Shown: positions 2,781 through 31,734 of the stretch, one piece after another
Layout: every line of letters starts with the position of its first letter
Position numbering within the stretch: position 1 is the stretch's first letter
Origin: Balneolaceae bacterium
GTDB lineage: Bacteria; Bacteroidota; Rhodothermia; Balneolales; Balneolaceae
Direction: 5' to 3'
NCBI GenBank assembly: GCA_020832415.1
Contig: JAFIES010000001.1
Coordinates: forward strand, 1-39,256
DNA length: 39,256 nucleotides
The notes under the pieces: model-generated
Database searches by the model: none
Seen by the model: the letters and a program-made list of their open reading frames with translations, nothing else
What the model was told of the DNA's origin: nothing
Program-made: the position numbers and the translations under genes

Positions 2781-3573
2781 AGTGGTGAGCGGGTTTGTTT
2801 TACGTTCGGGTAAGACTGAAAGGTGCTGTAACACTATGATTCATCCTTCAGAGCTTTTTTGTGAATTTTAATGGTTTTATGAAACCAACATCATATTAGA
2901 TGTGCTGAATCTATCTTAAAAAAGCTTTAAACATTTGGACTTTTCGCGCAAATGTTAGGACTTTTCGGTCAAAATGTGGCTTTTTGACTGAATAACGGTT
3001 TTCGCTGAGTCGTTTTTCTTCTTCGAAGGGTATTTTAAAACCGTGCGTAGATTGTTCGGTTCAGCAACCTGGCTGAGTGCCCCGATGCTTTTTATCGGGG
3101 TTCCTTGAAGCGTCGCGATACCGCGCAAAAGCATTGAATAAACATGGTACTTCTTCCCCGAAAGCACCTGTAAGCTTATCTGCTCAGATCCCGTAATAGC
3201 ATTTTTGTCCGTACTAAAAGAAATACCATGTTTTACCTCAACCCACAACGCTTGCATGAACTACGCTGCCAGGTTGTTTCATTCAGCGACCTTCAAGAGT
3301 ACCCCCGGTGCTTTTATCGGGGTTCCTTGAAGCGTCGCGATACCGCGCAAAAGCAACGAAGAAACATGGTATTTCTTCCCCGAAAGCACTCTGTAAGCTT
3401 ATCTGCTCAGATCCCGTAATAGCATTTTTGTCCATACTAAAAGAAATACCATGTTTTACCCCAAACCACAACGCTTGCAGGAACTACGCTCCGCTTCGTA
3501 CGCTGCCAGGTTGTTTGATTTAGCGACCTGCAAAGATCAGCAACTCTCCAGCCTCGACGGGTTGAGTATTGAT
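2781..3573. repeat. Gene-free region with a tandemly duplicated ~222-bp intergenic element
   Basis: No convincing gene is present. A unit of about 222 bp occurs twice in direct orientation (about 3050-3271 and 3272-3500), with a partial third start at about 3500-3540. Each unit opens with a hairpin (CCCCGAT, loop, ATCGGGG at 3080-3100; a G-T variant at 3303-3322). It then has the conserved string ggttccttgaagcgtcgcga and a pair of 16-base inverted arms, aaacatggtatttctt and aagaaataccatgttt (3362-3377 with 3441-3456; 3140-3155 with 3218-3233, one mismatch). Short open frames across the unit exist on both strands but follow the repeat, not a gene. The element resembles a non-coding intergenic repeat rather than a coding relic. 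Confidence 0.75.
2931..2979. promoter_or_regulatory. Two-copy 21-bp direct repeat with hairpin upstream of the beta-helix gene
   Basis: The motif ggacttttcg followed by an AAATGT-like box occurs twice with a 21-base period (starts 2937 and 2958). The first copy is framed by ACATTTG (2931-2937) and CAAATGT (2949-2955), which can pair. It lies 150-200 bases upstream of the ATG at 2780. A regulatory role is inferred only from this position and symmetry. Confidence 0.3.
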
Positions 3574-3969
3574 TTACTTACGTATCACACCAATTGCGAA
3601 GAAGATCCATCCCAGAATAAAGAGAAAACCGCCAATCGGTGTAATCATACCCAACCAGGCTGTATCTGTAAGTGTAAGAATATAGAGGCTTCCTGAGAAG
3701 ATGAAAATTCCGGCAATCAGGCAAAATGCACTTCTCGTCAGCCATTTTGAATCTTCATAGTTTGCGGCCACTGCCCCGAGAATCAACAGGCCAAGTGCAT
3801 GGTAGAAATGGTACTGAACGGCTGTCTCATAAACCTTGAACCGATCGGGTGTGAGTGCATCCTGCACAATGTGTGCGCCAAAGGCTCCAAAGGCCACAGC
3901 AAGGGCCATAAAAACTGCACCTGAAATCAGAATGATTTTTGGTGAGAGAAGAGCTCCGTTATCCTTCAA
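3574..3969 (-). CDS. DUF423 family small integral membrane protein
   Basis: The encoded protein of about 131 residues has four hydrophobic segments and the DUF423 signature LAVAFGAFGAHIV near its start, followed by YHFYHALGLLIL and a C-terminal PIGGFLFILGW. Members (E. coli YgdD-like) are inner-membrane proteins of unknown function. The frame stays open upstream to an ATG at 4095, but that part overlaps the Fe-S gene and encodes non-membrane sequence unlike the family. I therefore chose the TTG at 3969, which overlaps the upstream stop by 11 bases and suggests translational coupling. No better ATG exists before the first membrane segment, so the start is uncertain. Confidence 0.8.
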   Translation of the reverse strand: MKDNGALLSPKIILISGAVFMALAVAFGAFGAHIVQDALTPDRFKVYETAVQYHFYHALGLLILGAVAANYEDSKWLTRSAFCLIAGIFIFSGSLYILTLTDTAWLGMITPIGGFLFILGWIFFAIGVIRK

Positions 3970-4666
3970 ATCCGTTCTGTTTGTGTGTTCCGTCGCAGAA
4001 AGGTTTGGTTGTGGAACCGCCGCATCGGCACAGAGCAACCCCTTTACTGGAGGTATGTGCACCGATTGATGCAGACTCCATGGTATAGGTGCCATCCAGA
4101 ATTGCAGGTCCGTTTTTCATCAGTTTGATGATAAGCTTATCGCCATCTAAAGAGTCCGTTTCCGGCATTTTAGAAAGATCAGCTTTAACATCTGCTTTCC
4201 ACTTCATCTGTTGATGAGAATTGTCGCAGGCAGGCTTATTACCTGAGGCCCCGCATCGGCAAAATGCAAACCGGGTATCTTCAAGAATGGTGTTGCCCTC
4301 ATGATCCTGCACTTCAAGATCGCCAAAGAAATAGACCGGCCCATTGGGGCGCAGTACAATACGGTTTTTGGAAGATGGCTTCTCCTCGCGGCTGCTCTTT
4401 TTCATCTCATAATGGAGGGCGCCGGTGGGGCATTTTTCGATGACATCAGCTACTTTTTCCGCAGCTGCTTTTCCGGGCTGTATCCACGGCTTTTTTTCTA
4501 TATCAAAAACTTCCGGCAATCCCCTTACACACTCTCCGGCATGGATGCACCGTTTGAGATCATAGGTTACTTTAATGTCGTCACTTTCGTAGCTGTGAAT
4601 TTTTTCCTGCATAAATCTGTCTGCTTTCTTTACGTTTGTTTGAAAGTAACGCAAATTCACAGTCAT
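3959..4666 (-). CDS. Iron-sulfur protein: N-terminal mono-cluster (Fer4_19-type) domain plus two CDGSH zinc-finger-type domains
   Basis: The 235-residue protein has three parts. The N-terminal third contains CIHAGEC, VRGLPEVFD and CPTGALHY, typical of the divergent 4Fe-4S mono-cluster domain (DUF1271/Fer4_19). Two CDGSH motifs follow: CRCGASGNKPACDNSH, and near the C-terminus CRCGGSTTKPFCDGTH. Each has the three-Cys, one-His arrangement that binds a 2Fe-2S cluster in the mitoNEET family. No signal peptide is visible, so it is probably a cytosolic redox or Fe-S-handling protein with no known substrate. An internal ATG at 4612 is an alternative start that would remove 18 poorly conserved residues; neither has a clear ribosome binding site. 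The DUF423 gene overlaps its 3' end. Confidence 0.9.
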   Translation of the reverse strand: MTVNLRYFQTNVKKADRFMQEKIHSYESDDIKVTYDLKRCIHAGECVRGLPEVFDIEKKPWIQPGKAAAEKVADVIEKCPTGALHYEMKKSSREEKPSSKNRIVLRPNGPVYFFGDLEVQDHEGNTILEDTRFAFCRCGASGNKPACDNSHQQMKWKADVKADLSKMPETDSLDGDKLIIKLMKNGPAILDGTYTMESASIGAHTSSKGVALCRCGGSTTKPFCDGTHKQNGFEG

Positions 4667-6073: not shown

Positions 6074-9000
6074 ATGAAAAAACTGATTATATTCATCGCC
6101 ACACTTTTTTTCAGCCTGCCGGTTTTTGCGCAGGATAATCCGCTTTGGATTCGCTATCAATCTATCTCGCCAGATGGCCAGCAGATAGCATTTACGTACA
6201 AGGGCAATTTATACCGTGTTGCAGCAGATGGCGGGCAGGCGCGACAGCTCACATTCCATGAAGCACACGATTTTATGCCGGTCTGGAGCGGAGATGGTGA
6301 ACGGATCGCTTTTGCATCTGACCGTTACGGAAATTTCAACGTTTTTGTGATGGATGCCGATGGCGGCCCGGCTGAACGCCTCACCTACCACTCCGGCGAT
6401 GAATATCCATACAGCTTTTCACATGATGATGAATTTGTGATTTTTGGTGCCGTAAGACAAGATCTTGCTTCTCACAGGCAGTTTCCGGCTGCATCACAAC
6501 CGGAACTTTATAAAGTTCCATCCGAAGGAGGGCGGGTAGATCAAATATTCACCATCCCCGCGGAAGATATTCAGGTGAGCAATGATGGTTCGCAAATGGT
6601 TTATCACGACAAAAAAGGTGGTGAAAATGAGTGGAGAAAGCATCATCGCTCGGCCATTGCGCGCGACATATGGATCTATAACACAGCCGACAACAGCCAC
6701 ACCATGCTTACCACATTCGATGGGGAAAACCGAAATCCTGTATTCTCCGCTGATGAATCACAGATCTACTACCTAAGCGAGGAGAGCGGAAGTTTTAATG
6801 TGCACCGGATGGATCTCTCAGCTCCCGGAGAAAGTGAGCAGGTAACTTTTTTCGAAGACCATCCCGTTCGGTTTCTGAGCCACGCAAACGGAACCCTTGC
6901 TTTTGGATACCGGGGTGAGCTCTACACCATGAAAGAAGGAGAAGAGCCACAAAAAGTTGCCGTTTCCATACGAACCCAGTCAATTTCCAACCCCGATAGC
7001 TTTATCAGCATTAATGGTGGTGTGCAAGAGATGGCCATTTCGCCCAATGGTAAAGAGATTGCTTTTATCGCCCGTGGCGAAGTGTTTGTAACCTCAGCTG
7101 ACGGCTCTCTGACCAAACGAATTACCAACACCCCTCAGCAGGAACGCTTTGTTACGTTCACTCCAGACGGGGATGGAGTTGTATATGCAAGTAAGCGCGA
7201 TGGCCGCTGGAATATTTATAAAACAACCCGGCAGCGGGAAGAAGAGCCTTTCTTCTTTGCCTCTACCCTGCTTAATGAAGAGGTACTTGTTACGGCTGAT
7301 GAGGACAGCTATATGCCATCGTTCTCACCAGACGGCACTAAACTGGCTTATATAGCAGGAAGACGCACCCTGCGCGTGAAAGATCTTGAATCGGGCGATA
7401 CCACAGATCTCCTCACGCCTGATGATCTGTTCCACATGCGAGATGGCGACCAGTATTTCACATGGAGCCCCGACAGTAACTGGCTGCTTGTGGGCTGGCG
7501 TAAACTTCTCCACAACGCAGAGGTTCTGCTGATGGCTGCTGATGGCAGTGAGCGAATCAACCTTACTGAAAGCGGCTACTACGACCTGAACCCAAAGTGG
7601 GTTAATGACGGTAAGCAGATGATCTGGTTTACAAATCGTGATGGCCTACGCAGTTATGCAACAAGCGGGCAAACCGAGCGTGATGTTTACACCATGTTTT
7701 TCTCGCAGGAGGAGTGGGACAAATTCAACCTGAGTGAAGAAGATTACAAACTGATGCAGCAGATCGAAGAGGCACTGAAAAGCGATGACAATGATAACGG
7801 TGATGCCGAAAACGGTGACGAGCCCCTGCAGTTCGACTTCGATGGCATGAAAGACCGAATGGCGCGCCTCACTATTCATTCAAGCACCCTGAGTGATGCG
7901 GTTCTCTCAAAAGATGGAGAAACACTCTACTACCTCTCCAGATTTGAAGACAATTTTAACCTTTGGGAAACGAATCTGCGCACTCGTGAAACCAAAACAA
8001 CGATCCGACTGAACACCGGCCCGGGTGAACTTATGTGGGATAATGATATGGAGAATCTCTACCTGCTGAGCCGCGGTTCCATTTCGAAATTAAATCTATC
8101 TGCCGGCACCTCATCACCGGTGCAAATTCGTGGTGAGATGAAGTACGATGCAGATAAGGAGCGCGAGCAGATGTTTGAGCATGTGTATGTTCGCACCAAA
8201 AATGTATTCTATGAGCCCACCTTCCACGGTAACGACTGGGATGCACTCTATGAAGAGTACAAGCGATTTGTGCCCCACATCGGCAACTCGTATGAATTTG
8301 CTGAAATGATCTCCGAAATGATTGGAGAACTGAATGTATCGCATGCGGGTGCACGCTACAACCGAAGTATTGATAATGCCGATCAAACCGCATCACTCGG
8401 TATATTTATGGATTACAGCCACTCCGGCGATGGTATTCTCATTGAAGAGTTGATCCAGGGAGGTCCGCTTGATAAAGCCGCTTTTAACATCGAACCGGGA
8501 ATGATCATCGAAAAGATCGATGGAGATACCATTTCGGCCGACAGGGATGTCGCCATGTACCTTAACCGAAAAGCAGATCAGTTTGTGCTGCTTGATGTGG
8601 TTAGCGCAGATGGAAATGATCGCAAGCAGATCACCGTAAAACCGATTACACTTGGCCAGGAGCGGCAACTTTTATACCGGCGATTTGTTCGCATCAACGA
8701 GCAAGAGGTGGATGAGCGAAGTAACGGTCGCCTGGGCTATGTTCACATACCGGGAATGGGCGATGGTCCATACAGAAATGTAATCCGCGAAATGCTTGGA
8801 AAGTACAGCGATCGGGAAGCGGTAATTGTAGATGCACGTTTTAATGGCGGTGGTGATCTTGTTGCTGATCTGGCCATGTTCTTCACCGGTGAGTCATTTA
8901 ATACCTACGCCACTGCCGATAAAGATGTTGGTGGGGAACCTACATCACGGTGGACAAAACCCACACTCTCTCTCATCAACGAAGCGATGTACTCCGACGG

Positions 9001-9283
9001 ACACTGCTATGCCAGTGCCTACAGCGAGCTGGGAATTGGCACGACTGTTGGTATGCCGGTACCCGGAACATGCAGTTTTGCTGGATGGGAGATGCTTCCT
9101 GACGGCACCCGATGGGGTATTGTACCGGTAAGTGCCCGCAACATGAGCAATGAGTGGATGGAGAACAATCAGACCGAACCCGATATTAAAGTTCGCAACG
9201 AGCCGGATATTGTAGACAATGGCCGTGATCAGCAGCTTGAACGTGCCATTGAAGAACTTCTGAATCAGGTTACGGAAGAGTAG
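6074..9283 (+). CDS. Tricorn-like protease (PD40 propeller, PDZ, S41 catalytic domain)
   Basis: This 1069-residue protein has a signal peptide ending F-A-Q. Residues about 30-560 are PD40/WD40-like blades (repeated SPDGxxIAF and SxDGxxIxYxS), then an acidic linker near 570-590 and more blades. A C1-type helical region holds S756-H757 (VSH), a PDZ domain lies at about 775-845, and an S41 domain follows. Its nucleophile is S974 in YSDGH, preceded by the substrate-strand motif FNGGGD. E1035 in TEPD matches the fourth catalytic position of tricorn (Ser-His-Ser-Glu tetrad). The size and order match bacterial tricorn homologues, which cleave peptides. The signal peptide suggests a periplasmic location, unlike archaeal tricorn. 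The DDAH gene starts 5 bases after its stop, so the two are co-transcribed. Confidence 0.93.
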   Translation: MKKLIIFIATLFFSLPVFAQDNPLWIRYQSISPDGQQIAFTYKGNLYRVAADGGQARQLTFHEAHDFMPVWSGDGERIAFASDRYGNFNVFVMDADGGPAERLTYHSGDEYPYSFSHDDEFVIFGAVRQDLASHRQFPAASQPELYKVPSEGGRVDQIFTIPAEDIQVSNDGSQMVYHDKKGGENEWRKHHRSAIARDIWIYNTADNSHTMLTTFDGENRNPVFSADESQIYYLSEESGSFNVHRMDLSAPGESEQVTFFEDHPVRFLSHANGTLAFGYRGELYTMKEGEEPQKVAVSIRTQSISNPDSFISINGGVQEMAISPNGKEIAFIARGEVFVTSADGSLTKRITNTPQQERFVTFTPDGDGVVYASKRDGRWNIYKTTRQREEEPFFFASTLLNEEVLVTADEDSYMPSFSPDGTKLAYIAGRRTLRVKDLESGDTTDLLTPDDLFHMRDGDQYFTWSPDSNWLLVGWRKLLHNAEVLLMAADGSERINLTESGYYDLNPKWVNDGKQMIWFTNRDGLRSYATSGQTERDVYTMFFSQEEWDKFNLSEEDYKLMQQIEEALKSDDNDNGDAENGDEPLQFDFDGMKDRMARLTIHSSTLSDAVLSKDGETLYYLSRFEDNFNLWETNLRTRETKTTIRLNTGPGELMWDNDMENLYLLSRGSISKLNLSAGTSSPVQIRGEMKYDADKEREQMFEHVYVRTKNVFYEPTFHGNDWDALYEEYKRFVPHIGNSYEFAEMISEMIGELNVSHAGARYNRSIDNADQTASLGIFMDYSHSGDGILIEELIQGGPLDKAAFNIEPGMIIEKIDGDTISADRDVAMYLNRKADQFVLLDVVSADGNDRKQITVKPITLGQERQLLYRRFVRINEQEVDERSNGRLGYVHIPGMGDGPYRNVIREMLGKYSDREAVIVDARFNGGGDLVADLAMFFTGESFNTYATADKDVGGEPTSRWTKPTLSLINEAMYSDGHCYASAYSELGIGTTVGMPVPGTCSFAGWEMLPDGTRWGIVPVSARNMSNEWMENNQTEPDIKVRNEPDIVDNGRDQQLERAIEELLNQVTEE

Positions 9284-16973: not shown

Positions 16974-17402
16974 TTAGCCTATTACAAAAATTCTCGGGGG
17001 TGAGTCTCCCGTTGCAAAAACAAGATCACTGTGTACAAATATAGCATATGTGTAGGTGCCTACTCGAATATTCCTGCCTACAACAAGATTCAGAATGTTA
17101 CCATCTCGTATGGTTCGGTTTCCGTCGCCAAATAGTGCGTCATCGTCAAACTGAAAAGATAAATCAGACCCTTCGGCAGTCCAGCGGACCCGATCACCCT
17201 TTCTGACAAAAACAGTACCGGTTGATTCATCATCTTTGAGAACTACCTTCCACTCGCCATCTATCTGTTTCACAACCAGCTCATGCAGAGTGGATTGTGC
17301 CTCAGCGGATGGTTCCTGAGCTTCAAAATACCCGCCTGAATTGCCTGATAAAAAAGTCATCCCAAAAAGCATGATGGCTATATGTATACATTTTGTTTTC
17401 AT
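16974..17402 (-). CDS. Small exported cupredoxin-like protein, last gene of the kinase-phosphatase operon
   Basis: The ATG at 17402 was preferred over a start at 17474, which would overlap the kinase gene and lacks a signal. The 142-residue product starts MKTKC and has a hydrophobic stretch typical of an export signal. The mature part is beta-rich: VFVRKGDRVRWTAEGSDLSFQF, IRDGNILNLVV and GTYTYAIFVHS resemble plastocyanin/cupredoxin strands (the V-x-KGD-x-V-x-W pattern). The usual copper ligands (His, Cys, His, Met in the C-terminal loop) are not evident, so copper binding is doubtful. It begins 49 bases after the kinase stop. It may be a periplasmic partner or sensor of the kinase, which spans the membrane; that is inferred from position alone. 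Confidence 0.65.
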   Translation of the reverse strand: MKTKCIHIAIMLFGMTFLSGNSGGYFEAQEPSAEAQSTLHELVVKQIDGEWKVVLKDDESTGTVFVRKGDRVRWTAEGSDLSFQFDDDALFGDGNRTIRDGNILNLVVGRNIRVGTYTYAIFVHSDLVFATGDSPPRIFVIG

Positions 17403-17451
17403 AATTATTCCGTTACGTTGGTTGTTGTTGGTTAATACAAGTTTTTGAAAT

Positions 17452-20082
17452 TCAATTATCCTGAAGCTCACCAAATCTTGGATCTGAAATAAGATTCTGC
17501 AACTCCGGCTGACCTCTTATTTCAGATATGGAATACCCGGCTTCAATTGCTTTTTCTATGTAAATGAGTGCTTCCTCCCTCTCGCCAAGATACTCAAAAG
17601 TCGCTGCAGCAAGGTACATTACCGTTGAATTATCAGGTGCTAATTGAAGTGCCCTGCTGATATACGATCTGGCAGCCTCTTCATTTCCTACTCGAGCATT
17701 ATAACCTGCCAGACTAATGATTGCATCGGCATCATTTTCATTTACTTTTAACGTTTCGTTGGCGGCTTCAATGGCGCGCAGATAAGCATTCCGGGCCTTT
17801 TCGCGCTGACCGGGTGCATAGTAATACGCTGTGGCAAGATTTCCCCATAAGAAATAATGTGTGTCATTAAATTCGAGGGCCGTTTCATAAGCCTTTGCAG
17901 CATCAGCATACAGTCCTTCTGCATAATAGAGTGTTCCAAGATTGGATGCAGCACCAAAGGTCTGTTCAAATTCAAGCGATTTTTCATACATCGCTCTGGC
18001 TTCACTCAGCATGCCTGTAAAGTAGTACATACTGCCAAGGTTCAGGTAACCGCGATAATTATCGGGTGTAAGCTCAATCACACGCCTGAACTGCTCCTTC
18101 GCCTCTTCATATCGTGTATTTCTAAAATAGAATGCACCCAGCGCATTGTACCCGTCCCAGTTGTCTGGCTTGAGCTGTATGGCACGCAGATAGGTTGCTT
18201 CAGCTTCATTGAGATCACCGGAAGATTCATATGCCTGTGCCATCCCTTTATGAGCTTCTGCATTTGTAGGATCGGCAGAAAGTGCGTCTGTAAAGTGCTC
18301 GATCGCTTCTGAATATCTGCCTGTACCGGTTTTTATCATTCCCAAAGTAATGTGAGCCTGCAATAATCGGTTGTTCAGTCTGTAAGCCTCGTTCGCCTGT
18401 TCAGATGCCAGTGTAGCCCAGTTACGGTCAAGCGTATTCTCATACAACCTCCAGTAGGCATGGCCAAGCGCTGCGTGTGCAAGTGCAAATCCGGTATCCA
18501 GTTCTATGGCTTCCTTAAATGCTGTGATGGCCTGTTCAATATTGTCAACCCTTTCGTAGCGCTGCAGATACCCGAGGCCTTTCATATAGAGCTCAAAAGC
18601 TTCGGGTATGGAGGTTTTCCCTTCGTTGATGATACTGATCGATTCAGGATTAAGCTCCAAATTGAGCATGCTCAGAAGGTTTTCAACTGATTTTTCATGC
18701 AACTCTAAGAGATTATTTTCATCCACATCTATTACTACGGAGTTTAGCTGACGAAGATTTCTCGAATCGATGAGTGTAAGAGTTAACCTGAGCCTATTTG
18801 CAAGTGGTTGAAGGCTGCCTGCAATGGCGTAATTCACTTTAAAAAGCTGATACGCCTGCCCGGCGCTCGCTATGTTATAACTGCGCACTTCTCCCGCCGG
18901 CACTACCCATAAATTTCTCTGAAACTGCTCCATTTGCGACAATTGGCTGGTGAGCGTTTCAACAAGGCCATCGGCAAATACCTGTCTGCCCGGGTCCGAT
19001 CCGATATTTGTAAATGGCAGAACTGCAAGATGAACCGTGTCGTCATCGGCAGATGAAAACCACGACTGGTTGGACCCCGGACGCACCAAAACCCATAAAA
19101 TTGCAATAATTAAAACCCCGGCAACTCCTGCCAATATACCTTTTTGCCTCTTATTTACTTTATATACTGTTGGTTTCGTAGCAGAATAATTCCCCGAATA
19201 AAGCATATTGCCAATAGCTTGTAAATCGGACAGAACCTCTGTCATGCTTTGATAGCGTTCATCCACATCTTTAGACAAACAGCGGCTTACAATTTCTTCC
19301 AGTCCATCTAAGAGTTCACCATCAGCACTTTGCAGCGGTGGCGGATCAGAATTGATTATGGAATAGATGATGGAGTGGTCATAATCCCCCCCAAAAGGAA
19401 GTTTACCTGACAGTATCTCATACAGAACCACACCAAACGACCAGATATCGCATCTTGGTTCCGCCGGTTCTCCTCTTACTTGCTCGGGAGACATATATGC
19501 GGTAGTACCAACTGTTGTACCCTCTTTCGTTAGCTGAACGCTATCGGCAATTTTTGCGAGGCCAAAATCAAGCAGTTTAATCTCATTACTGCTGCTTACC
19601 ATAATGTTTGCAGGCTTCACATCACGGTGTGTTATCTCTTTCTTGTGAGCTGCTTCAAGGCCTCTCGCAATTTGAATGGCGTAGCTCAGTACCGCCTTGG
19701 AATGGCTGTATTCCGGCTGATCTGCTGAAGATCCGGCTGCTGAATCGGTTACAATACCGGTTTCCTGAGCTTTAATTTTTTTAATGAATGACTCATGGAG
19801 ATTGGCTCCATCAATGTACTCCATTACAATAAACTGCTTGCCGGCTTCATCCTCTTCAATTCCATACACCTGGCAAATGTTGGGATGATTCATCTGTGCA
19901 ACTGAACGTGCCTCTTGTAAAAACCGGGCCCGGTTCTCTTCACTTACGGGAGTATGATCAGGTACAAACTTAATTGAAACATCCCGATTCAGTTTGGTAT
20001 CCAGAGCTCTGTAGACCACCCCCATGCCACCTTCACCGAGCTTTTCTGTAATTCTATAATGGGAAATGGTTTTATTAATCAT
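17452..20082 (-). CDS. Transmembrane Ser/Thr protein kinase with TolB-like domain and TPR repeats
   Basis: This 876-residue protein opens with a Hanks-type kinase domain: GEGGMGVVY glycine loop, K38 in SIKFV, D154 in HRDVKPAN, DFGLAKI, an activation segment with TTVGTTAYMSPEQ, and subdomain IX DIWSFGVVLYE. All catalytic residues are present. A transmembrane helix lies at about residues 315-335. Next is a FlgO/TolB-amidohydrolase-type N-terminal region (LAVLPFTNIG, FADGLVETLTSQL), as in many CadC- and adenylate-cyclase-like sensors. About eight tetratricopeptide repeats fill residues 480-860. The kinase should be cytosolic with its TPR part outside, unless the topology is reversed. It is preceded by the ABM-like gene (66-base gap) and the phosphatase gene, which likely opposes it. 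Confidence 0.94.
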   Translation of the reverse strand: MINKTISHYRITEKLGEGGMGVVYRALDTKLNRDVSIKFVPDHTPVSEENRARFLQEARSVAQMNHPNICQVYGIEEDEAGKQFIVMEYIDGANLHESFIKKIKAQETGIVTDSAAGSSADQPEYSHSKAVLSYAIQIARGLEAAHKKEITHRDVKPANIMVSSSNEIKLLDFGLAKIADSVQLTKEGTTVGTTAYMSPEQVRGEPAEPRCDIWSFGVVLYEILSGKLPFGGDYDHSIIYSIINSDPPPLQSADGELLDGLEEIVSRCLSKDVDERYQSMTEVLSDLQAIGNMLYSGNYSATKPTVYKVNKRQKGILAGVAGVLIIAILWVLVRPGSNQSWFSSADDDTVHLAVLPFTNIGSDPGRQVFADGLVETLTSQLSQMEQFQRNLWVVPAGEVRSYNIASAGQAYQLFKVNYAIAGSLQPLANRLRLTLTLIDSRNLRQLNSVVIDVDENNLLELHEKSVENLLSMLNLELNPESISIINEGKTSIPEAFELYMKGLGYLQRYERVDNIEQAITAFKEAIELDTGFALAHAALGHAYWRLYENTLDRNWATLASEQANEAYRLNNRLLQAHITLGMIKTGTGRYSEAIEHFTDALSADPTNAEAHKGMAQAYESSGDLNEAEATYLRAIQLKPDNWDGYNALGAFYFRNTRYEEAKEQFRRVIELTPDNYRGYLNLGSMYYFTGMLSEARAMYEKSLEFEQTFGAASNLGTLYYAEGLYADAAKAYETALEFNDTHYFLWGNLATAYYYAPGQREKARNAYLRAIEAANETLKVNENDADAIISLAGYNARVGNEEAARSYISRALQLAPDNSTVMYLAAATFEYLGEREEALIYIEKAIEAGYSISEIRGQPELQNLISDPRFGELQDN

Positions 20083-20148: not shown

Positions 20149-20907
20149 TTACACAAATTTCTTTCCTGTAATCAACTCGAACTTACTTATGCCAATATCC
20201 TGGCTTGTAACTGCACTTTTACTCTTTGAGCGTGATTTAAGCACCATTTTCCATTGATAAAGCCCACCCAGTGTATGATTTGCCTGCTCGAGAAACTGTT
20301 TAAACATTCCATGTTTTTCGTACTTCTCAACGGTTTCTAAATCTTGCCATATTGATAATGAGATCATTTCACCGTCATTCTCTGAGTTATCGAGTAAAAA
20401 TGCGTATCGGCACCCCGGTATTTTCTTCAATTCCGGTAATATCTCTGTGTTATAAATTTTTCTGAACTCTTCTTTAAATCCTTCTTTAACCTTTAAGGAT
20501 AAAATCCTGAGAATGTTACTCTGATTGGTTATTTCATCGGGAAGCGGCTCCGGATTTTCTGCCGTCGGATACAATTTTACACTTGGCTCAATTGGTATCT
20601 CTTTGTACTCAACCATATTGTCATCAGATAGCTGAATTTTCCATTCGCTTTTCTCTTCAAGCAAATGCTGAACTGATTCAAGATTTTTCTGATAACTGCC
20701 TGATGCCTCATAGACCTCTGCATCTTTTTCCGATTGCCAAAGCGTTAATGATATGTACTTAAACTCCTGATCTCTGCTGTGAAGTAATCCTGCAAAAATG
20801 CACCCCGGAACTTTTTCAAGGGATGTTAAGATCTTTTCTGCATACACTTCTCCAAGTAAATATTCACCCTTCTTTTTTACGGTTGCCTCTACCATTCTCA
20901 GATACAT
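20149..20907 (-). CDS. Tandem ABM-like (dimeric alpha-beta barrel) didomain protein
   Basis: The 252-residue protein consists of two related halves. Each has a leading strand (YLRMVEATVK; ILRILSLKVK), a helix, the motif (V/I)PGC(I/R)(F/Y)AxLL, then an acidic loop and (I/M)ISL(T/S)(L/I)WQ, a helix and a WK(I/M) strand. That is the antibiotic-biosynthesis-monooxygenase/heme-degrading (ABM) ferredoxin-like fold, usually a dimer of single domains, here fused. No cofactor is used by classical ABM enzymes, and heme-binding members need His or Asn residues I cannot place. The start is ATG 20907, with GGAGG seven bases upstream; a TTG six bases earlier is unlikely. It sits between a phosphatase (15-base gap) and a kinase, so it may be their substrate or ligand-binding partner. 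Confidence 0.8.
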   Translation of the reverse strand: MYLRMVEATVKKKGEYLLGEVYAEKILTSLEKVPGCIFAGLLHSRDQEFKYISLTLWQSEKDAEVYEASGSYQKNLESVQHLLEEKSEWKIQLSDDNMVEYKEIPIEPSVKLYPTAENPEPLPDEITNQSNILRILSLKVKEGFKEEFRKIYNTEILPELKKIPGCRYAFLLDNSENDGEMISLSIWQDLETVEKYEKHGMFKQFLEQANHTLGGLYQWKMVLKSRSKSKSAVTSQDIGISKFELITGKKFV

Positions 20908-20922
20908 AGCCAAACCTCCGGT

Positions 20923-22251
20923 TTAGTTGTTTACCCGCTTTATAGCCAGTGCTGTAAGATCATCAAACAGTTTTGCATTACCACAGTGTTTCAGGCAGCT
21001 GCCAACTACAGTTTCAATCAATGTATCGGACGTTTCTCCGCTTTGGAGTGAATCTATCAGCAGTTTTTTAAGCCGCTCTTCACCAAACATCTCTTCCTGA
21101 ATATTAGTGGCATCCGTCACACCGTCAGAAAAGACAAACAGAAATTCACCTTCATCAAGTGTAAACCTATCTTCTTCGTACTCCATGCCATCCATCATGC
21201 CAAGTGGCAGCCCGCCGGTTTGCAATCTCTCAAAAGTGCCATCTTTACGCATTAAAAAAGGATAGTCGTGTCCGGCACTTGAATAGCTGATTTCATTGCT
21301 GTTCGTATCGAGTATGGCTATAAACAGGGTGGCAAACTTTTCGGCACTGGTACTCTGATAGAGCTGACTGTTTGCGTGTTTCAGAATTTCGCCGGGCTTT
21401 ATGAGGTGAAATGCTTGTCCGCGTAAAATGGCCTGCAGATTGGTCATCAGCAGGGAGGCAGGCAGCCCTTTGCCGCTTATATCACCCAGGCAAAATACCC
21501 ACCGGTTTTCATCCAGTTTTATATAGTCGAAATAATCACCTCCAACTTCCTGCGCTGTTATATTCTTTCCTGATACAGAATATCCGTGAATAACAGGCGG
21601 CTCTTCAGGCAGCATTTTTTTCTGGATGGATGATGCAAGTTCAAGCTCTCTGCGCATAAACCGATATGCTTGCTCCTCTTCGTACAACCGTGCATTCTCA
21701 ACTACCTGCGCCGATTGTGCCGCGATAATTGCCAGCAACCTTTGATCAGACTCAGAGAAAACTGAATCCGATTCATTCCGTTTATTATAAATCGTTAGAA
21801 TACCGATTAGTTTTGAACGTGCCATCAATGGCGCACTCAAAACCGATTTTATGGTACTGTCCCATTTCACATTTCTGAACCTTTCATCATTTCCCGGTTC
21901 ATTAATCATCAAAGGCTTTTTGTTGATCTGCATCCACCCCAGCAAGTTCTGATTGAGATGCAGAGGAGAGTGCTCGGTTGTACTGATCATGCTTCTTACA
22001 AGCGTTTGCGTAGGATTGGCCTGATTTACATCAATCAAGGTGATGTCGCCCTGTTCGGCCCCTAAAGCACGTATGGATTTGCCAATAATAGAACGCATGA
22101 TTTTTTCACTATCCAGACTACCCCCGATAGCAAGTGCCAGATCGTTCAAAATGGCTAGCTCATCAACAGCTCTTCTAAGGCGGACATTCTCTTCCTGTAG
22201 CTGCTTAAACTTTGCAGCAGACAGATCACTATCAGGATTATTGGATATCAA
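20923..22251 (-). CDS. GAF-domain SpoIIE/PP2C-type serine phosphatase
   Basis: The 442-residue protein starts with a short coiled coil (FKQLQEENVRLRRAVDEL), then a GAF domain (about 35-195) ending in AQSAQVVENARLYEEE. Another helix, ELASSIQKKMLP, leads to the SpoIIE/RsbU-like PP2C domain. Metal-binding residues are visible at GGDYFDY (D239), GDISGKGLPASL, FSDGVTDA and the final DDLTALAI. It is cytosolic and should dephosphorylate Ser/Thr phosphoproteins, with GAF tuning activity. The only in-frame start upstream of the coiled coil is TTG at 22251, following an in-frame stop; the next ATG (codon 53) would cut into the GAF domain. It is the first gene of the operon that continues with the ABM didomain and the Ser/Thr kinase. 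Confidence 0.92.
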   Translation of the reverse strand: MISNNPDSDLSAAKFKQLQEENVRLRRAVDELAILNDLALAIGGSLDSEKIMRSIIGKSIRALGAEQGDITLIDVNQANPTQTLVRSMISTTEHSPLHLNQNLLGWMQINKKPLMINEPGNDERFRNVKWDSTIKSVLSAPLMARSKLIGILTIYNKRNESDSVFSESDQRLLAIIAAQSAQVVENARLYEEEQAYRFMRRELELASSIQKKMLPEEPPVIHGYSVSGKNITAQEVGGDYFDYIKLDENRWVFCLGDISGKGLPASLLMTNLQAILRGQAFHLIKPGEILKHANSQLYQSTSAEKFATLFIAILDTNSNEISYSSAGHDYPFLMRKDGTFERLQTGGLPLGMMDGMEYEEDRFTLDEGEFLFVFSDGVTDATNIQEEMFGEERLKKLLIDSLQSGETSDTLIETVVGSCLKHCGNAKLFDDLTALAIKRVNN

Positions 22252-22484: not shown

Positions 22485-24713
22485 TCAGGCTGAGTGCCCC
22501 ATAAAGTGTGTTGGCGGCTTGCGGAAATGTTTGCTAAATGACGAAGAAAACTGGGCCACACTTTTAAATCCGGTTGAGTAGGCAATTTCGCTCACGGTGC
22601 CTGCTTTCTGTTTGAGCAGATTCATCCCTCGTTCAAGCCGCATTCGCCTTATCAGTGCACTTGGAGATTCATCGGTAAGATCCCGAAGCCTTCTGAAAAG
22701 CTGTATTCTGCTTTGATACATCTTTTCAGCAAGATCTTCAACTGAAAAAAACTCCTCATGCATGTGCTGTTGAATGACCTGCCTTACCTTCTCCAGATAC
22801 AGATCATCTGTGGATGCCGCTTCAATCACGTCAGGGCTCATGGTTACGCCTGTTGAATTGGTACTGCTATTTTGATTCGCATAGTGCTTTTGCAGACGTT
22901 TTTGCCGCTCAATCAGATTATACACCCTTAATGAAACCTCTTCCATACTAAAAGGTTTTGTAAGATAATCGTCAGCACCGATACCCAATCCTTCGAGTTT
23001 GTCTTCTGCCTCAGCACGGGCAGTAAGCAAAATTACAGGCAGAAAATTAGTTTCTGAATTACTTCGCAAATTTTTCAACAAAGTAAAGCCATCTCCGTCG
23101 GGCATCATCACATCAGAAATAATAAGGTCCGGCAAAAACTTAAGGGTTTTTTTCAGAGCCTTGTTTCCCGATCGCGCTGTAATCACTCTGTACTCATCAG
23201 AAAACTGATTTTCCAGATAGGTGCGAATATCTTTGTTGTCGTCCACAACAAGGATTGTTTTTAGTTCTTCATCAGCTTCCTCATCCGCATCTTCATCCAG
23301 TGAAAATGCTTTTTCGGGCAGAAGAGCTTCTTCAATCCCTTCTTCGCCCGACAAATTAAGTTCAACAACTGCAGATACATCCACATTTTCTAAAGGCAAG
23401 ATGATACTGAATTCAGTTCCCCTACCTGATTTACTTGTAACATCAACCCGCCCCCCATGCTGCTCGGTGATCTCTTTCACAAGGGCAAGCCCAATACCGG
23501 TGCCCGGCTGCATTTCCGATTTTTCGGCCTGATAGAAACGATCAAATAGTCGCGGAAGATGATCCGGGTCTATTCCTTTTCCTGTATCTGTAATCCGGAT
23601 AATGGCTTCTTTTTCATTTTTTTCAAGAGTAACAGAAACATCCCCACCTTCCGGCGTGAATTTAAAAGCGTTAGAAAGCAGATTAGAAATAACTTTTTCG
23701 AACTGCTCCGGGTCAAATTGTGCGATGATTACATCAGAAGGTATGTTGATTGAAAAGTTAATGTTATAGCGTTCTGCAGCACCAACAAATCTCGAAGAGA
23801 TGTGGCGTATATACTGATTTAGGGGAGCATTTTCAGGTTTTAATCTAAACAGGTTTGCCTCAAATCGGGCGAGATCCATCAGCTGGGTAACCAGTCTCAT
23901 CAGCCGTTTTGCATTCCTGGTGGCCATATCAACCTGCGCTTTACCCTCTGTAGTTAGAGTGCCATATTTTGGTTTACTGAGATTCTCGAGTGGCGCTATT
24001 GTGAGGGTGAGAGGGGTTCTGAATTCATGACTGATATTTGCAAAAAACCGGCTTTTCTCAGCATCAAGTTGTTTCAGTTTTTCGGCTTGAGCTTCTGTAA
24101 TTTTTTTCTGCTCCGATAGTTCGTTGTTTTTATTTGTGAGCAATCGCATCGCATTAATCCTTCCGTTTTCGAATACAATGGCAATCACATAAAAAATCAA
24201 TATCAGCCCCACAAATGTGGATAGAACAAAAAACAGCGGGGGCTCATTAAGTGAGCCTTCGGGTGGTGAAAATTCAATCCGTTCAAAATAGTAAAACATT
24301 ACCAGCATGGTTAATTGTCCAAACAGCGTGTACATCCCCATCAACTTTCCTGAAACGAGCAGGGCTACAATAGGCGTAGTTGCCAGCCAGGGAAGAATGA
24401 ACGAGTTAAACCCTTCTGTGTAGTAAATAACCGTACTGATGAGGATAATGGCAGATGTGAAAAAAAGAAATGCGATTTTAATCTGCGAAACTGCATTTCT
24501 GAAAAGAGTGAGGCAAATCAGTGAGATGATGAACAAAGGCACCTGTGATAGCAGACCTCCACTGAAATCTATAAAGAAACTAATTGCGGAGTAGCTGAAT
24601 GTAAATAGCGCAACAACAATATAAACACCAACAGCAAGCCTCGACTTCCGGAGTGTTTCATCATCCCCGCGATATTCATCAGGAATAAAATAATCGATTA
24701 GCTTTGCAAACAT
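22485..24713 (-). CDS. Membrane hybrid histidine kinase with receiver and AraC DNA-binding output
   Basis: The 742-residue protein begins with a six-helix membrane domain (about residues 28-195, after LRKSRLAVGVY) that has no periplasmic sensor. It continues to HisKA with H229 in NISHEFRTPL, HATPase_c (NLLSNAFKFTPEGG, DTGKGID, GTGIGLALV), a receiver with D534 in SDVMMPDGDG, and a C-terminal AraC helix-turn-helix (about 640-742). It is an HTCS-like one-protein signalling chain in which a membrane input replaces the propeller. The kinase-receiver-AraC part is very close to that of the protein at 12699-16697, while the membrane domain matches the separate kinase at 24810-26198. Gene duplication and domain exchange within this locus is the simplest explanation. 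Confidence 0.95.
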   Translation of the reverse strand: MFAKLIDYFIPDEYRGDDETLRKSRLAVGVYIVVALFTFSYSAISFFIDFSGGLLSQVPLFIISLICLTLFRNAVSQIKIAFLFFTSAIILISTVIYYTEGFNSFILPWLATTPIVALLVSGKLMGMYTLFGQLTMLVMFYYFERIEFSPPEGSLNEPPLFFVLSTFVGLILIFYVIAIVFENGRINAMRLLTNKNNELSEQKKITEAQAEKLKQLDAEKSRFFANISHEFRTPLTLTIAPLENLSKPKYGTLTTEGKAQVDMATRNAKRLMRLVTQLMDLARFEANLFRLKPENAPLNQYIRHISSRFVGAAERYNINFSINIPSDVIIAQFDPEQFEKVISNLLSNAFKFTPEGGDVSVTLEKNEKEAIIRITDTGKGIDPDHLPRLFDRFYQAEKSEMQPGTGIGLALVKEITEQHGGRVDVTSKSGRGTEFSIILPLENVDVSAVVELNLSGEEGIEEALLPEKAFSLDEDADEEADEELKTILVVDDNKDIRTYLENQFSDEYRVITARSGNKALKKTLKFLPDLIISDVMMPDGDGFTLLKNLRSNSETNFLPVILLTARAEAEDKLEGLGIGADDYLTKPFSMEEVSLRVYNLIERQKRLQKHYANQNSSTNSTGVTMSPDVIEAASTDDLYLEKVRQVIQQHMHEEFFSVEDLAEKMYQSRIQLFRRLRDLTDESPSALIRRMRLERGMNLLKQKAGTVSEIAYSTGFKSVAQFSSSFSKHFRKPPTHFMGHSA

Positions 24714-24809: not shown

Positions 24810-26198
24810 TTATACTGAAAGAGTAATAATAAATCGGGTACCCGTTTCAACAGTTTCTATTGCAAGCTTACCACCGTGTGCTTTAATAATGTCATTTGTG
24901 ATGGATAATCCAAGCCCTGTTCCCTGAGTTCCTTTCTTTGTGGTAAAAAATGGCTGAAGTATTTTTTCTTTGATCTCGTGAGGAATGCCGGGGCCGTTAT
25001 CCTCGATTTCCAGGATAATCTCTGAACTCTCCCTTTGAGTTCGAATTACAAGCTTTGGCTTATACTCTTCAATATTCAGTTTTTCTCTCATCGCATCAAA
25101 CGCATTATTGCAAATATTCAATATTACGCGCGAAAAATCCTCAGCAACAAGCGGCACTTCGCCAACCTGATCATCCAATTCCAATTGGATGTCAACATTA
25201 ATTGGGTCATTCCCTGCACGCATACCATGAAAAGCTAATTTTACATACTCATTAATAAGATGATTAAGAGGAGTTGGATCCATAGATCCGTCTCCGCCGC
25301 GGGAATGCTGAAGCATTGACATAACTATACCATTAGCCCGCGATCCGTGCTCATGGATTTTACGGAGGTTAGCTTCAATGTCATCGAGGATTTCGAGGAT
25401 GAGATTGGAATCGGGGCTCGATCCAACCTCTTCCCGCACCTCATCAACCATTTCAATACTCACCTCAGAAAAATTATTCATAAAGTTCAGCGGATTTTTT
25501 ATCTCATGGGCAATTCCGGCAGTTAACTGCCCAAGGCTTGCCAGCTTTTCCTGCTGCACGAGTTGTTCCTGTGTGCTTTTTATTTTTTCGATCGCTTCTT
25601 GCAGGTCTTCATTTTTATCTGTCAGCAGGCTCATGGCATTCATCCGGCCATTCTCAAAGACTATAGCCACTGCATAGAAAATTAGTATCAGTCCGGAATA
25701 TGTCGACAAAACATAACTTACAGCCGGCTCAGTAAGAGATCCGGCAGGCTGAGGAACTCCGGTTATTTCAAGCAGATAAAAAACTGACAGCATTGCTAAC
25801 TGACCGGTAAGTGTATAGATACCCATCTTCTTTCCGGATACGAGCAGGGCTACAATAGGTGTGGTAGCCAGCCATGGAATAATAAAAGAGTTGAAGCCTC
25901 CCGTATAGTAGATGGCAGTGGAAATAGAGAGTATGGCCGATGTAAAAAAGATGAACGCAACTACTTTCTCAGAAATGCCTTTTTTAAACATCAGCAGGCA
26001 GAGAATTGAGATAAACATAAGCGGTGCCTGCGACAAAAGCCCACCCTCAAAACTGATAACAATATTGATTACCGAATAACTGAAGGAAAACAGTGTTACA
26101 ATTATGTATACACCTACGGCGAGCCTCGATTTTCTGAGCGTTTCTTTGTCATCGCTGTAAAAATCAGGAATAAAGAAATCGATTAGTTTAGTAAACAT
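24810..26198 (-). CDS. Membrane sensor histidine kinase (HisKA/HATPase)
   Basis: The 462-residue protein shares its first 205 or so residues with the downstream hybrid kinase (MF(A/T)KLID(Y/F)FIPD, then LRKSRLAVGVYI), forming six membrane helices. A coiled coil with the motif KIKSTQEQLVQQEKLASLGQLTAG leads to H231 in IAHEIKNPLNF. The ATPase domain has NNAFDAM, DNGPGIP and GTGLGLSI. No receiver or DNA-binding domain is attached and no separate response regulator gene is in the window. It may cross-talk with the receiver of the adjacent hybrid kinase, 96 bases downstream. This kinase subtype often follows multi-helix inputs in Bacteroidota; the signal is unknown. Confidence 0.94.
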   Translation of the reverse strand: MFTKLIDFFIPDFYSDDKETLRKSRLAVGVYIIVTLFSFSYSVINIVISFEGGLLSQAPLMFISILCLLMFKKGISEKVVAFIFFTSAILSISTAIYYTGGFNSFIIPWLATTPIVALLVSGKKMGIYTLTGQLAMLSVFYLLEITGVPQPAGSLTEPAVSYVLSTYSGLILIFYAVAIVFENGRMNAMSLLTDKNEDLQEAIEKIKSTQEQLVQQEKLASLGQLTAGIAHEIKNPLNFMNNFSEVSIEMVDEVREEVGSSPDSNLILEILDDIEANLRKIHEHGSRANGIVMSMLQHSRGGDGSMDPTPLNHLINEYVKLAFHGMRAGNDPINVDIQLELDDQVGEVPLVAEDFSRVILNICNNAFDAMREKLNIEEYKPKLVIRTQRESSEIILEIEDNGPGIPHEIKEKILQPFFTTKKGTQGTGLGLSITNDIIKAHGGKLAIETVETGTRFIITLSV

Positions 26199-29518: not shown

Positions 29519-30886
29519 TCAAAGATCATAAATCTCAAAAAGATGGGGTATTACTGCTTTCCACCCATATTTATCTTTAAGTTTCAGCCTTAAAGAATCC
29601 AGTGAATGGGGTTCTCCGTGCACCAAAAATATCTGATCAGGACTTTTTTTTAACCCTGACACCCAGTCAATCAGTTCGTTCTGATCAGCGTGACCGGACA
29701 ATCCCTGTAGAATTTCCACCCGTGCTTTTACAGGATAATATTTTCCAAAGAATTTAATCTCAGTGGCTCCTTCCATGAGGCTTCTGCCACGTGTTCCTTC
29801 TGCCTGATATCCGGCAAGAAGAACAGTCGTTTCCGGTTTTGAAATATATATTTGAAGATAGCTGAGCACACGTCCCCCTGTAACCATACCACTGCCGGCA
29901 ATTACAATTTTAGGCTTTGGATCGTCTATAATTTCCCACGTCTCTTTGAAGGATTCAACCATATGCACACGGCTGCACATCTCCTCACACTCCTTTTCAC
30001 TGAGCTTGTGCCAGTCATGATGTTTTCGAAAAATCTCCAGGATATTTGCACCCATCGGTGTATCCAGAATTACAGGAAGATTTTTTGGAAGAGATCCAGA
30101 CTTATGAAGCTGCCACAGCATGTACATTACTAACTGAGCTCTCTCAACTGCAAAGCTTGGGATAATCAGCGTACCATTCTTTTGGATTGTTTCATCGATC
30201 ACTTTTTTTAGTTTCTCAATTGCATGTTCAGATGTGTGGGTGCGATCTCCATATGTGCTCTCAAGAAACAGAACATCTGCTTTTTCAGGTTTTTCAGGAT
30301 GTCTCAATATCGGGTCGTTTTTCCGGCCAATATCACCTGAGAACAGAATACGCTTTCCGGCATAATCGATTTCAATAAACGTTGCTCCCAGGATATGCCC
30401 GCTGTATTGAAACCGCACCTTTATCCCTTTTCCGGCTTCAATCCACTCTCCATCTCCTTTCTTTCTGAACCTGGTTACCGTTTTATCAACATCAACTGAA
30501 TTGTACAGCGGTTTTGCAGGATTGTGCTTTGTGAATTTTTCCTTATTGGCTCTTTCTGCGTCTTCTTCTTGAATTTTTGCACTATCTCTAAGTATCACTT
30601 CGGCAATGTTCAGTGTGGGTTCAGTTCCCCAAATCTCTCCGGAAAAACCCATTTTTATCAGTCTCGGCAAAAATCCACAGTGATCAAGGTGGCCGTGTGT
30701 GAGTAGTATCAGATCTATACCGGATGCCAGAACAGGCAATTGCTGCCAATTTAACTCTCGAAGCTCCTTCACTCCCTGAAACATTCCGCAATCAACCAAT
30801 ATATTCTTGTGTTCCAGTTCAAGCAGATACTTTGAACCTGTTACCGTACCTGCCGCGCCTAAAAAGTGAACTTTCATTTTCTTCAT
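29519..30886 (-). CDS. Metallo-beta-lactamase/beta-CASP RNA-processing exonuclease family protein
   Basis: The 455-residue protein begins with the metallo-beta-lactamase core: T63-H64-G-H66-L-D68-H69, then SGHILGATF and ILFSGDIGR. The beta-CASP region follows, with FLESTYGDRTH, TLIIPSFAVERAQ and VIAGSGMVTGGRVLSYL, and an RMMBL C-terminal motif (GLSGHADQNELIDWV) supplying the last metal ligand. This is the YSH1/CPSF-73-like family of ribonucleases found in bacteria. It is cytosolic, with zinc-dependent RNA cleavage expected. Its start ATG overlaps the stop of the upstream ATP-cone/nuclease gene (ATGA); an internal ATG at 30877 is an alternative. The coupling suggests a shared pathway. Confidence 0.93.
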   Translation of the reverse strand: MKKMKVHFLGAAGTVTGSKYLLELEHKNILVDCGMFQGVKELRELNWQQLPVLASGIDLILLTHGHLDHCGFLPRLIKMGFSGEIWGTEPTLNIAEVILRDSAKIQEEDAERANKEKFTKHNPAKPLYNSVDVDKTVTRFRKKGDGEWIEAGKGIKVRFQYSGHILGATFIEIDYAGKRILFSGDIGRKNDPILRHPEKPEKADVLFLESTYGDRTHTSEHAIEKLKKVIDETIQKNGTLIIPSFAVERAQLVMYMLWQLHKSGSLPKNLPVILDTPMGANILEIFRKHHDWHKLSEKECEEMCSRVHMVESFKETWEIIDDPKPKIVIAGSGMVTGGRVLSYLQIYISKPETTVLLAGYQAEGTRGRSLMEGATEIKFFGKYYPVKARVEILQGLSGHADQNELIDWVSGLKKSPDQIFLVHGEPHSLDSLRLKLKDKYGWKAVIPHLFEIYDL

Positions 30887-31734
30887 AGTTTATAGCTGTT
30901 GCTATTGCATACCTCATTTGCCTCTTTTGCTATTCTGTTTATTCTGCGTTCATCGATTCCGGCTTCATTTAGTACTCTTTTATTCCGGCAAATCTGTTTA
31001 CAGAAAATCACTTTACTGTCCAGAAGTTTTTCTTTATCACCATCTGTAAGAGTGGATAAACAGGTAACAGGGTGCAAACCAAGCCTGCCAATTAAATCTC
31101 TTATTCCATTATTTTCAGGATAGTCCCAGCTAAGCAGTTCCAAACCCACACATTCAGCATACGTTTCCGCATCCGATGTAAAGCGGGTATTTGTAACTAC
31201 CATACCTTTATGAATTTTATTTTCATGGCCGGGAAGACTGGTCCAGTTTCTTTTTATATCGAGAAACCTGGACTGTATGTACAGGGGTACTTGTATATTA
31301 CAACGGTTCTCCTTTTTATTATGAAATTTACATTCTACAAGCAGGTATTCATTCTCCTTTTGAGCAATCACGTCTATTTCATGCTGAACACAATCCCCTT
31401 TCACCGATACACCAACCTCTGTACTATAACCAAAACCGGCAAGCAGTTCGCCTACAAATTGTTCGAATGGAAATCCGGTGGGGCCCAGCTCGAATATGGC
31501 CTCTTTAAGTTTATACCGCCCGGCAGCACGCTGCGATTCGGCCCTAAGCAGGCGAAAAGCCTCCCGATAAATTTTCTGCGTACTGATCTCTTCAACCAGT
31601 TTATCACGAATCGAATGTGCGATGGAGTTAATGACAGTCTCTGATGCTCCGGCATTCTTCAAAGATCGTCTGAGTTTCGTTTCATCAAACGGTTCCAGTT
31701 CACCGGATGCTTTGGTTACATGAACATTCGTCAT
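30883..31734 (-). CDS. ATP-cone domain fused to a Mrr-like PD-(D/E)XK nuclease domain
   Basis: The 283-residue protein starts with an ATP-cone (residues 1-90): VTKASGELEPFD, then the helical segment LRRSLKNAGAS and ISTQKIYREAFRLLR, as in the N-terminus of ribonucleotide reductases and NrdR. A nuclease-like domain follows with ELLAGFGY, D121 in HEIDVIA, and E134-C-K136 in LLVECKFHN, the D...ExK arrangement of Mrr/restriction-endonuclease-like proteins. The C-terminal part has KVIFCKQICRNKRVLNEAGI, rich in Cys. It is cytosolic. Nucleotide binding by the cone could gate cleavage. It is translationally coupled (four-base overlap) to the beta-CASP nuclease. Confidence 0.88.
   Translation of the reverse strand: MTNVHVTKASGELEPFDETKLRRSLKNAGASETVINSIAHSIRDKLVEEISTQKIYREAFRLLRAESQRAAGRYKLKEAIFELGPTGFPFEQFVGELLAGFGYSTEVGVSVKGDCVQHEIDVIAQKENEYLLVECKFHNKKENRCNIQVPLYIQSRFLDIKRNWTSLPGHENKIHKGMVVTNTRFTSDAETYAECVGLELLSWDYPENNGIRDLIGRLGLHPVTCLSTLTDGDKEKLLDSKVIFCKQICRNKRVLNEAGIDERRINRIAKEANEVCNSNSYKL

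Follow-up and report, generated by a model that had tools for sequence, protein, structure and literature searches.

A tandem ABM-domain protein recurs beside SpoIIE phosphatase, Ser/Thr kinase, and STAS genes in Bacteroidota

In partner switching, a SpoIIE/RsbU-type phosphatase works together with a STAS antagonist, and the classical kinase of such a switch is an anti-sigma factor, with a fold other than that of Hanks-type kinases. Here we describe a gene that lies among signalling genes in a stretch of 39,256 nucleotides from a Balneolaceae bacterium (contig JAFIES010000001.1 of assembly GCA_020832415.1); this whole stretch is called the window below. The gene encodes two fused ABM domains, and we refer to it and its product as di-ABM. 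In Mycobacterium tuberculosis, the Hanks kinase PknD is reported to act on the STAS-type anti-anti-sigma factor Rv0516c (PMC4601284). The heme-degrading proteins IsdG, IsdI, MhuD, and HmuQ share the ABM fold (PF03992), and the catalytic triad of IsdG consists of Asn7, Trp67, and His77 (PMC6018153). ArqI (PA0709) of Pseudomonas aeruginosa affects quorum-signal synthesis and interacts with PqsA (PMC12274486). A fidelity role of an ABM protein in polyketide synthesis is indicated by PMC6689052.

The di-ABM gene of the window sits between a GAF-SpoIIE phosphatase gene and a gene for a Ser/Thr kinase with TPR repeats, all on the minus strand; a preliminary description of this DNA had placed it between a phosphatase and a kinase. 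We found that di-ABM is genomically tied to a cassette of GAF-SpoIIE, Hanks-type kinase, and often STAS genes. Because of its position between phosphatase and kinase and because the same company recurs in relatives, di-ABM probably regulates this signalling switch and does not act as an enzyme on its own. With moderate confidence, we read it as an accessory subunit dedicated to a cassette for Ser/Thr phospho-signalling, in preference to a heme enzyme.

The linkage was counted by a six-frame scan with six signalling profiles. Fifty genomes had a class or phylum match to di-ABM, and 36 of them gave the 39 loci that were counted. The genome of the window and eight near relatives, all nine with SpoIIE beside the gene, were left out of the 39, as were G206, G223, G224, and G232, whose matches were partial or at a contig edge. 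Locus L099 (G129), a weak ABM match, was dropped before counting, and L073 and L083, which hold two di-ABM genes each, were each counted once by the better match. In 33 of the 39 loci, a GAF-SpoIIE gene lay no more than 7 kb away and without exception on the strand of di-ABM, with about 3.3% expected per locus. A kinase gene was within 8 kb in 30 loci (4.1% expected), and a STAS anti-sigma-antagonist gene was within 8 kb in 19 (3.1% expected). These expectations come from gene densities, which for SpoIIE means 266 matches in 117.8 Mb. In 26 of the 39 loci, the SpoIIE gene was no more than 1.5 kb away. The linkage of SpoIIE and di-ABM spans eleven family-level groups of Bacteroidota, with changed gene order.

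As a control, 25 Balneolaceae genomes that lack di-ABM were used, and 13 of them contributed 18 single-domain ABM loci in total. No SpoIIE, GAF, Ser/Thr protein kinase, or STAS match was found within 1.5 kb at any of the 18, and a single weak histidine-kinase match (11.6 bits) was seen. Because the control genomes all belong to one family, the control is unmatched to the phylum-wide set. The preliminary description had suggested a sensor or an adaptor; the eleven family-level groups and the empty surroundings of the single-domain loci favor that suggestion, and this support is contextual in kind.

In most Balneolales loci the order is SpoIIE, di-ABM, kinase. Gaps between genes are 3 to 22 nt in 13 of the 15 Balneolales loci, and in 12 of the 15, SpoIIE is no farther than 0.2 kb from di-ABM and a kinase no farther than 1.5 kb. 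Five loci of the f19 group have the order SpoIIE, STAS, kinase, di-ABM, and three more loci have SpoIIE, STAS, di-ABM. The phosphosite pattern D-S/T-S/A/T/C-G is present in 8 of the 20 linked STAS domains; by eye, the others read NSSG (eight), NSAG (two), SSAG (one), and NSSA (one). Two further arrangements occur in the f19 group: two di-ABM genes stand in a row in L073 (2157-3756), and two flank a kinase gene in L083 (2052-6709). In L062 of genome G246 (7756-9172 and 2709-3383), the di-ABM gene comes after a Cu/Zn superoxide dismutase gene with no SpoIIE nearby, and the matches to STAS and to a histidine-kinase-type ATPase are 4.4 to 4.8 kb off.

The linkage is also seen from the side of the phosphatase. 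Among 92 Balneolaceae genomes, 22 near-full-length SpoIIE genes are at least 54% identical to that of the window, and 20 of the 22 are followed by di-ABM; the SpoIIE match in G069 is cut by the contig end. The listed SpoIIE genes at 47% identity or less come from genomes that lack di-ABM, except that in G019 the two genes lie apart. Genomes G075 and G035, with two or three di-ABM genes, have an equal number of matching SpoIIE partners, and in four of the five paralogous pairs in these genomes, SpoIIE and di-ABM agree in their nearest relative.

The two halves of di-ABM are an internal duplication of the ABM unit. Pfam ABM (PF03992) matches the protein in two stretches (E = 1.3e-20, 73.8 bits), and the separate scores of domain 1 (34.1 bits) and domain 2 (44.5 bits) both exceed the cutoff of 23.1. 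The halves are 34% identical over 91 residues without gaps (BLAST E = 5e-17), and HHalign aligned half to half with a probability of 99.9 across 98 columns. The two fused copies noted earlier were therefore confirmed. The repeated motifs that had been given for them, PGC(I/R)(F/Y)AxLL and ISLxxWQ, do occur in both halves (PGCIFAGLL and PGCRYAFLL; ISLTLWQ and ISLSIWQ). However, the first residue P and the last residue Q are not kept in relatives, where conservation centers on the cores G-C and S-x-T/S-x-W. One other ABM match is present in the genome of the window (3.9 Mb, 152 contigs), a 140-residue frame on contig C110.

The family search covered Bacteroidota genomes, in which relatives of di-ABM with the conserved tail are patchy. 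Within the family, 17 of 92 genomes have one, counting the window's own (in two pieces in G058). At E <= 1e-6, 40 of 244 class genomes had a profile match, some of these matches being partial or weak, and at E <= 1e-10 the figure for the phylum was 23 of 395; the three sets overlap, and the phylum set was drawn evenly from a larger group. The nearest named relatives encountered are metagenome-assembled genomes labelled Balneolaceae, the contig scan gave Balneolaceae only, and a plasmid search for di-ABM relatives gave no match. In L042/L094 (G218), di-ABM seemed to be fused to a 760-residue frame; we rejected this fusion, as the long open frame lies opposite an ABC-transporter open reading frame (ORF). 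Genome G225 has a 404-residue frame.

When 43 sequences were aligned (three lack the N terminus), near-invariant residues paired up across the halves: R4/R134, Y22/Y152, G35-C36/G165-C166, S53/S183, W57/W187, Y66/Y196, and W89-K90/W219-K220. Mean conservation is 2.51 bits in domain 1, 2.46 in domain 2, 2.45 in the C-terminal tail, and 2.07 and 1.73 in the linkers. The tail is thus as conserved as the ABM domains, and its Ser235 is present in 42 of the 43 sequences. Three members of f42, one of the family-level groups, have lost 6, 6, and 8 of the ten hallmark residues of domain 2 and keep the S-S-E-D core of the tail; one of the three also has two domain 1 hallmarks changed. In the f42 relative L067, PF03992 matches domain 1 only.

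Structure prediction, which the preliminary description had proposed as a check, yielded a usable model for domain 2. The model of the whole protein was poor, with a predicted local distance difference test (pLDDT) score of 49, and too weak to judge domain packing, so that the pseudo-dimer discussed below is a proposal. A second model covered domain 2 plus the tail, with both halves stacked as alignment rows, so that domain 1 entered the modelling as these rows and in the poor whole-protein model. Its mean pLDDT was 72.9, with a core mostly at 76 to 89 (about 85) and values below 50 from model residue 96 on, and the local structure of the tail had no confident prediction. Its matches were ABM-type proteins, with a VIA Z of 13.7 for 9lmn (root mean square deviation [rmsd] 3.3, 108 residues aligned) and 3e8o (rmsd 2.5, 100 aligned). 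LsrG and PA0709/ArqI followed at 13.2, YgiN at 12.3, IsdG at 10.9, ActVA-Orf6 at 10.8, and MhuD at 10.7. No subfamily is singled out, because rows within 1 Z are tied. The model supports a ferredoxin-like ABM fold for domain 2, and this likeness to ABM proteins is no sign of function.

The top Foldseek matches to the low-confidence whole model were 3f44, 3mcs, 5f9p, and 9kdp. These chains have 210 to 241 residues, room enough for a pair of ABM folds, and their alignments ran through both halves of di-ABM; by length and two-half alignment, they appear to be tandem ABM chains. Given these PDB entries, ABM proteins apparently do not occur as single domains only, and the earlier view that a fused pair is in itself unusual finds no support.

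A heme site matching known enzymes, named in the preliminary description as the sign of an ordinary enzyme, was sought by sequence and was not found. IsdI and IsdG were among the top PDB-sequence profile matches, and in this profile alignment the IsdG Trp and His correspond to Tyr66 and Leu76 of domain 1. By the half-to-half alignment, they correspond to Tyr196 and Leu206 of domain 2. The Asn position falls on Glu7/Ser137 when placed by eye, as the hidden Markov model alignment starts after it. The NCBIfam HmuQ model (NF053649) gave 30.4 bits, below its equivalog cutoff of 130. With Trp and His replaced in both domains and the HmuQ score low, the canonical heme oxygenase site is absent, and judged by its residues di-ABM is not an IsdG-type heme oxygenase. 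It may bind heme in a noncanonical way; ArqI is reported to bind heme though its canonical pocket seems too small (PMC12274486).

These results bear on the possibility that di-ABM is an enzyme of another kind, a cofactor-independent oxygenase, isomerase, or cyclase, in which case the cassette would sense its substrate or product and the operon would regulate or report the chemistry. Characterized structural neighbors of the second model include the enzymes LsrG, SnoaB, ActVA-Orf6, MhuD, and IsdG, certain polar and aromatic residues hardly vary in either domain, and in G246 a superoxide dismutase gene precedes di-ABM. However, the IsdG Trp and His are missing, and in a survey made mainly with signalling profiles, the neighbors seen to recur are signalling genes. 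We consider such an enzyme unlikely, although it is the alternative that fares best.

The tail points to a second alternative, less likely still, in which di-ABM is a phospho-substrate or output of the kinase-phosphatase pair. The kinase would add a phosphate to Ser235 or Thr 234 and SpoIIE would remove it, alongside a STAS protein or in its place. Ser235 lies outside the ABM core and is retained in the three f42 members with a decayed domain 2, both partner genes are close by in the 12 Balneolales loci mentioned above, and there is no STAS match inside the window. However, positions 53, 55, 183, and 185 are equally conserved as Ser or Thr, so that conservation of a Ser by itself proves nothing. 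In addition, MAFFT aligned the last part of the tail with the segment that follows domain 1 at the equivalent place. The tail may therefore belong to the repeat unit and be structural.

A subunit or sensor of the phospho-signalling cassette is the most economical reading, because phosphatase, kinase, and STAS genes recur, the IsdG-type site is gone, and the tail is kept outside the fold. We suggest that the two ABM units may pack as an intramolecular pseudo-dimer, whose pocket might bind a small molecule or simply be a scaffold. di-ABM would then contact the phosphatase or the kinase, possibly via the conserved tail, and would tune how far the STAS protein or another target is phosphorylated. 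A bolder form of this proposal, to which we give little credence, would make di-ABM a third component of Bacteroidota SpoIIE/STAS/Hanks-kinase switches, a small-molecule-sensing pseudo-dimer gated by reversible phosphorylation of the conserved tail Ser, in which an oxygenase fold has become a phospho-switch adaptor. Least probable of all is a passenger, that is, a housekeeping ABM protein that was inherited together with the phosphatase gene but has no functional link to it, for although di-ABM is patchy and absent from two otherwise similar loci, the SpoIIE link holds in eleven family-level groups with altered gene order and is not seen at the single ABM loci.

Several points weigh against a dedicated subunit. 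Six of the counted loci lack SpoIIE; four of these (G226, G231, G228, and G215) end at a contig edge 0.6 to 3.2 kb upstream, and two are real exceptions, namely, G246, whose flanks on either side exceed 7 kb, and G218, which has 6.0 kb of upstream DNA and where the N terminus of di-ABM is incomplete. Gene order and distance vary outside Balneolales, with distances of up to 5.3 kb. Loci in G073 and G070 go straight from SpoIIE to kinase, which means that di-ABM is accessory and that phosphatase and kinase can persist when it is missing. The correlation of tree distances between ABM and SpoIIE is just 0.48. We claim no significance for the linkage tests, because the loci are related and are not independent events. 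There may be a recurring metabolic neighbor, as the scan used the six signalling profiles and other neighbors were annotated with Pfam in few loci. Genomic linkage is not contact, and a catalytic pocket could explain the residues that both domains conserve.

Within the window, the phosphatase has the catalytic motifs GGDYFD, GDISGKG, SDGV, and DDLT, and the kinase has HRDVKPAN and DFG, so that a PP2C-type phosphatase and a Ser/Thr kinase are encoded together with their catalytic motifs. The kinase is of the Hanks type and not an anti-sigma factor. A GGAGG stands 7 nt upstream of the di-ABM ATG, and 66 nt separate di-ABM from the downstream kinase gene. These gaps and the common strand suggest that SpoIIE, di-ABM, and kinase form one operon (Table 1). 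A promoter scan gave no excess, with 13 found and 13.0 expected by chance. There are seven STAS matches in the same genome. In one place (G000:C56:3153-4339), a STAS match is directly followed by another Ser/Thr kinase match, and this may be a STAS part of the cassette.

Table 1. Coordinates of di-ABM and its neighboring genes in the window
Feature	Position	Strand	Basis or remark
GAF-SpoIIE (PP2C-type) protein phosphatase	20923..22251	-	Pfam; metal-binding motifs present
15-nt gap from SpoIIE stop to di-ABM start, contains GGAGG	20908..20922	-	Sequence reading
di-ABM gene	20149..20907	-	252 aa; ATG at 20905-20907, stop at 20149-20151
ABM domain 1, residues 1-93	20629..20907	-	Pfam match, alignments
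Interdomain linker, residues 94-130, semiconserved EYxPVxxEPxV	20518..20628	-	Alignment
ABM domain 2, residues 131-223	20239..20517	-	Pfam match, alignments, structure model
C-terminal extension, residues 224-252, conserved tail TSxDIxISKFxLITGKxF	20152..20238	-	Alignment
Ser/Thr (Hanks-type) kinase with TPR repeats	17452..20082	-	Pfam; HRD and DFG motifs present

Other genes of the window deserve mention in their own right. A small, probably secreted protein is encoded 3' of the kinase gene (16974-17474, minus strand). It has no Pfam or NCBIfam match, and in several Balneolaceae loci a relative of it adjoins the gene for the kinase or for di-ABM. Two adjacent histidine kinases (22485-24713 and 24810-26198, both minus strand) are apparently related in their N-terminal and kinase parts, and each matches the other's relative in L004 at 40 to 42%; receiver and AraC-type domains are on only one of the two. 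A protein with ATP-cone and Mrr_cat restriction-type domains (30883-31734, minus strand) overlaps by 4 nt with ORF 29519-30886, which by eye resembles a metallo-beta-lactamase-fold RNA nuclease. Finally, a Fer4_19 ferredoxin domain and CDGSH iron-binding repeats are joined in one protein (3959-4666, minus strand).

Searches of the literature on ABM together with SpoIIE found no di-ABM component described, with most subscription journals outside the search. A narrow search on partner switching with STAS, SpoIIE, Bacteroidetes, or kinase found nothing, and neither did one on anthrone oxidase and ABM. The fusion of ABM units alone is not new, because apparent tandem chains are already in the PDB. 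The recurring link of di-ABM to the SpoIIE/kinase/STAS cassette is what we did not find described; this genomic bond is unexplained and testable. ABM proteins are annotated as monooxygenases by default. In Bacteroidota, di-ABM keeps company with phosphatase, kinase, and anti-sigma-antagonist genes, which suggests that the ABM fold was recruited to signal transduction, as is reported for the single-domain ArqI. The linkage names a testable partner, the adjacent GAF-SpoIIE protein, as well as a tail motif.

Compared with IsdG, IsdI, MhuD, and HmuQ, di-ABM has two domains per chain, Tyr and Leu in place of the triad Trp and His, and a low HmuQ score. It shares the apparent tandem arrangement with the putative monooxygenases 3f44 and 3mcs, the anthrone oxidase-like 5f9p, and PenE (9kdp), but only 10 to 14% identity. 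ArqI has the same fold (VIA Z 13.2 for 8ecp, rmsd 2.1, 97 aligned) and is a precedent for an ABM protein with a regulatory role. However, ArqI is a single-domain protein that forms a hexamer and is encoded in an operon with a glyoxalase gene (PMC12274486). The likeness to partner switching lies in the GAF-SpoIIE, STAS, and Hanks-type kinase genes that share clusters with di-ABM, and if our reading is true, di-ABM would add an input or an adaptor to such switches in Bacteroidota.
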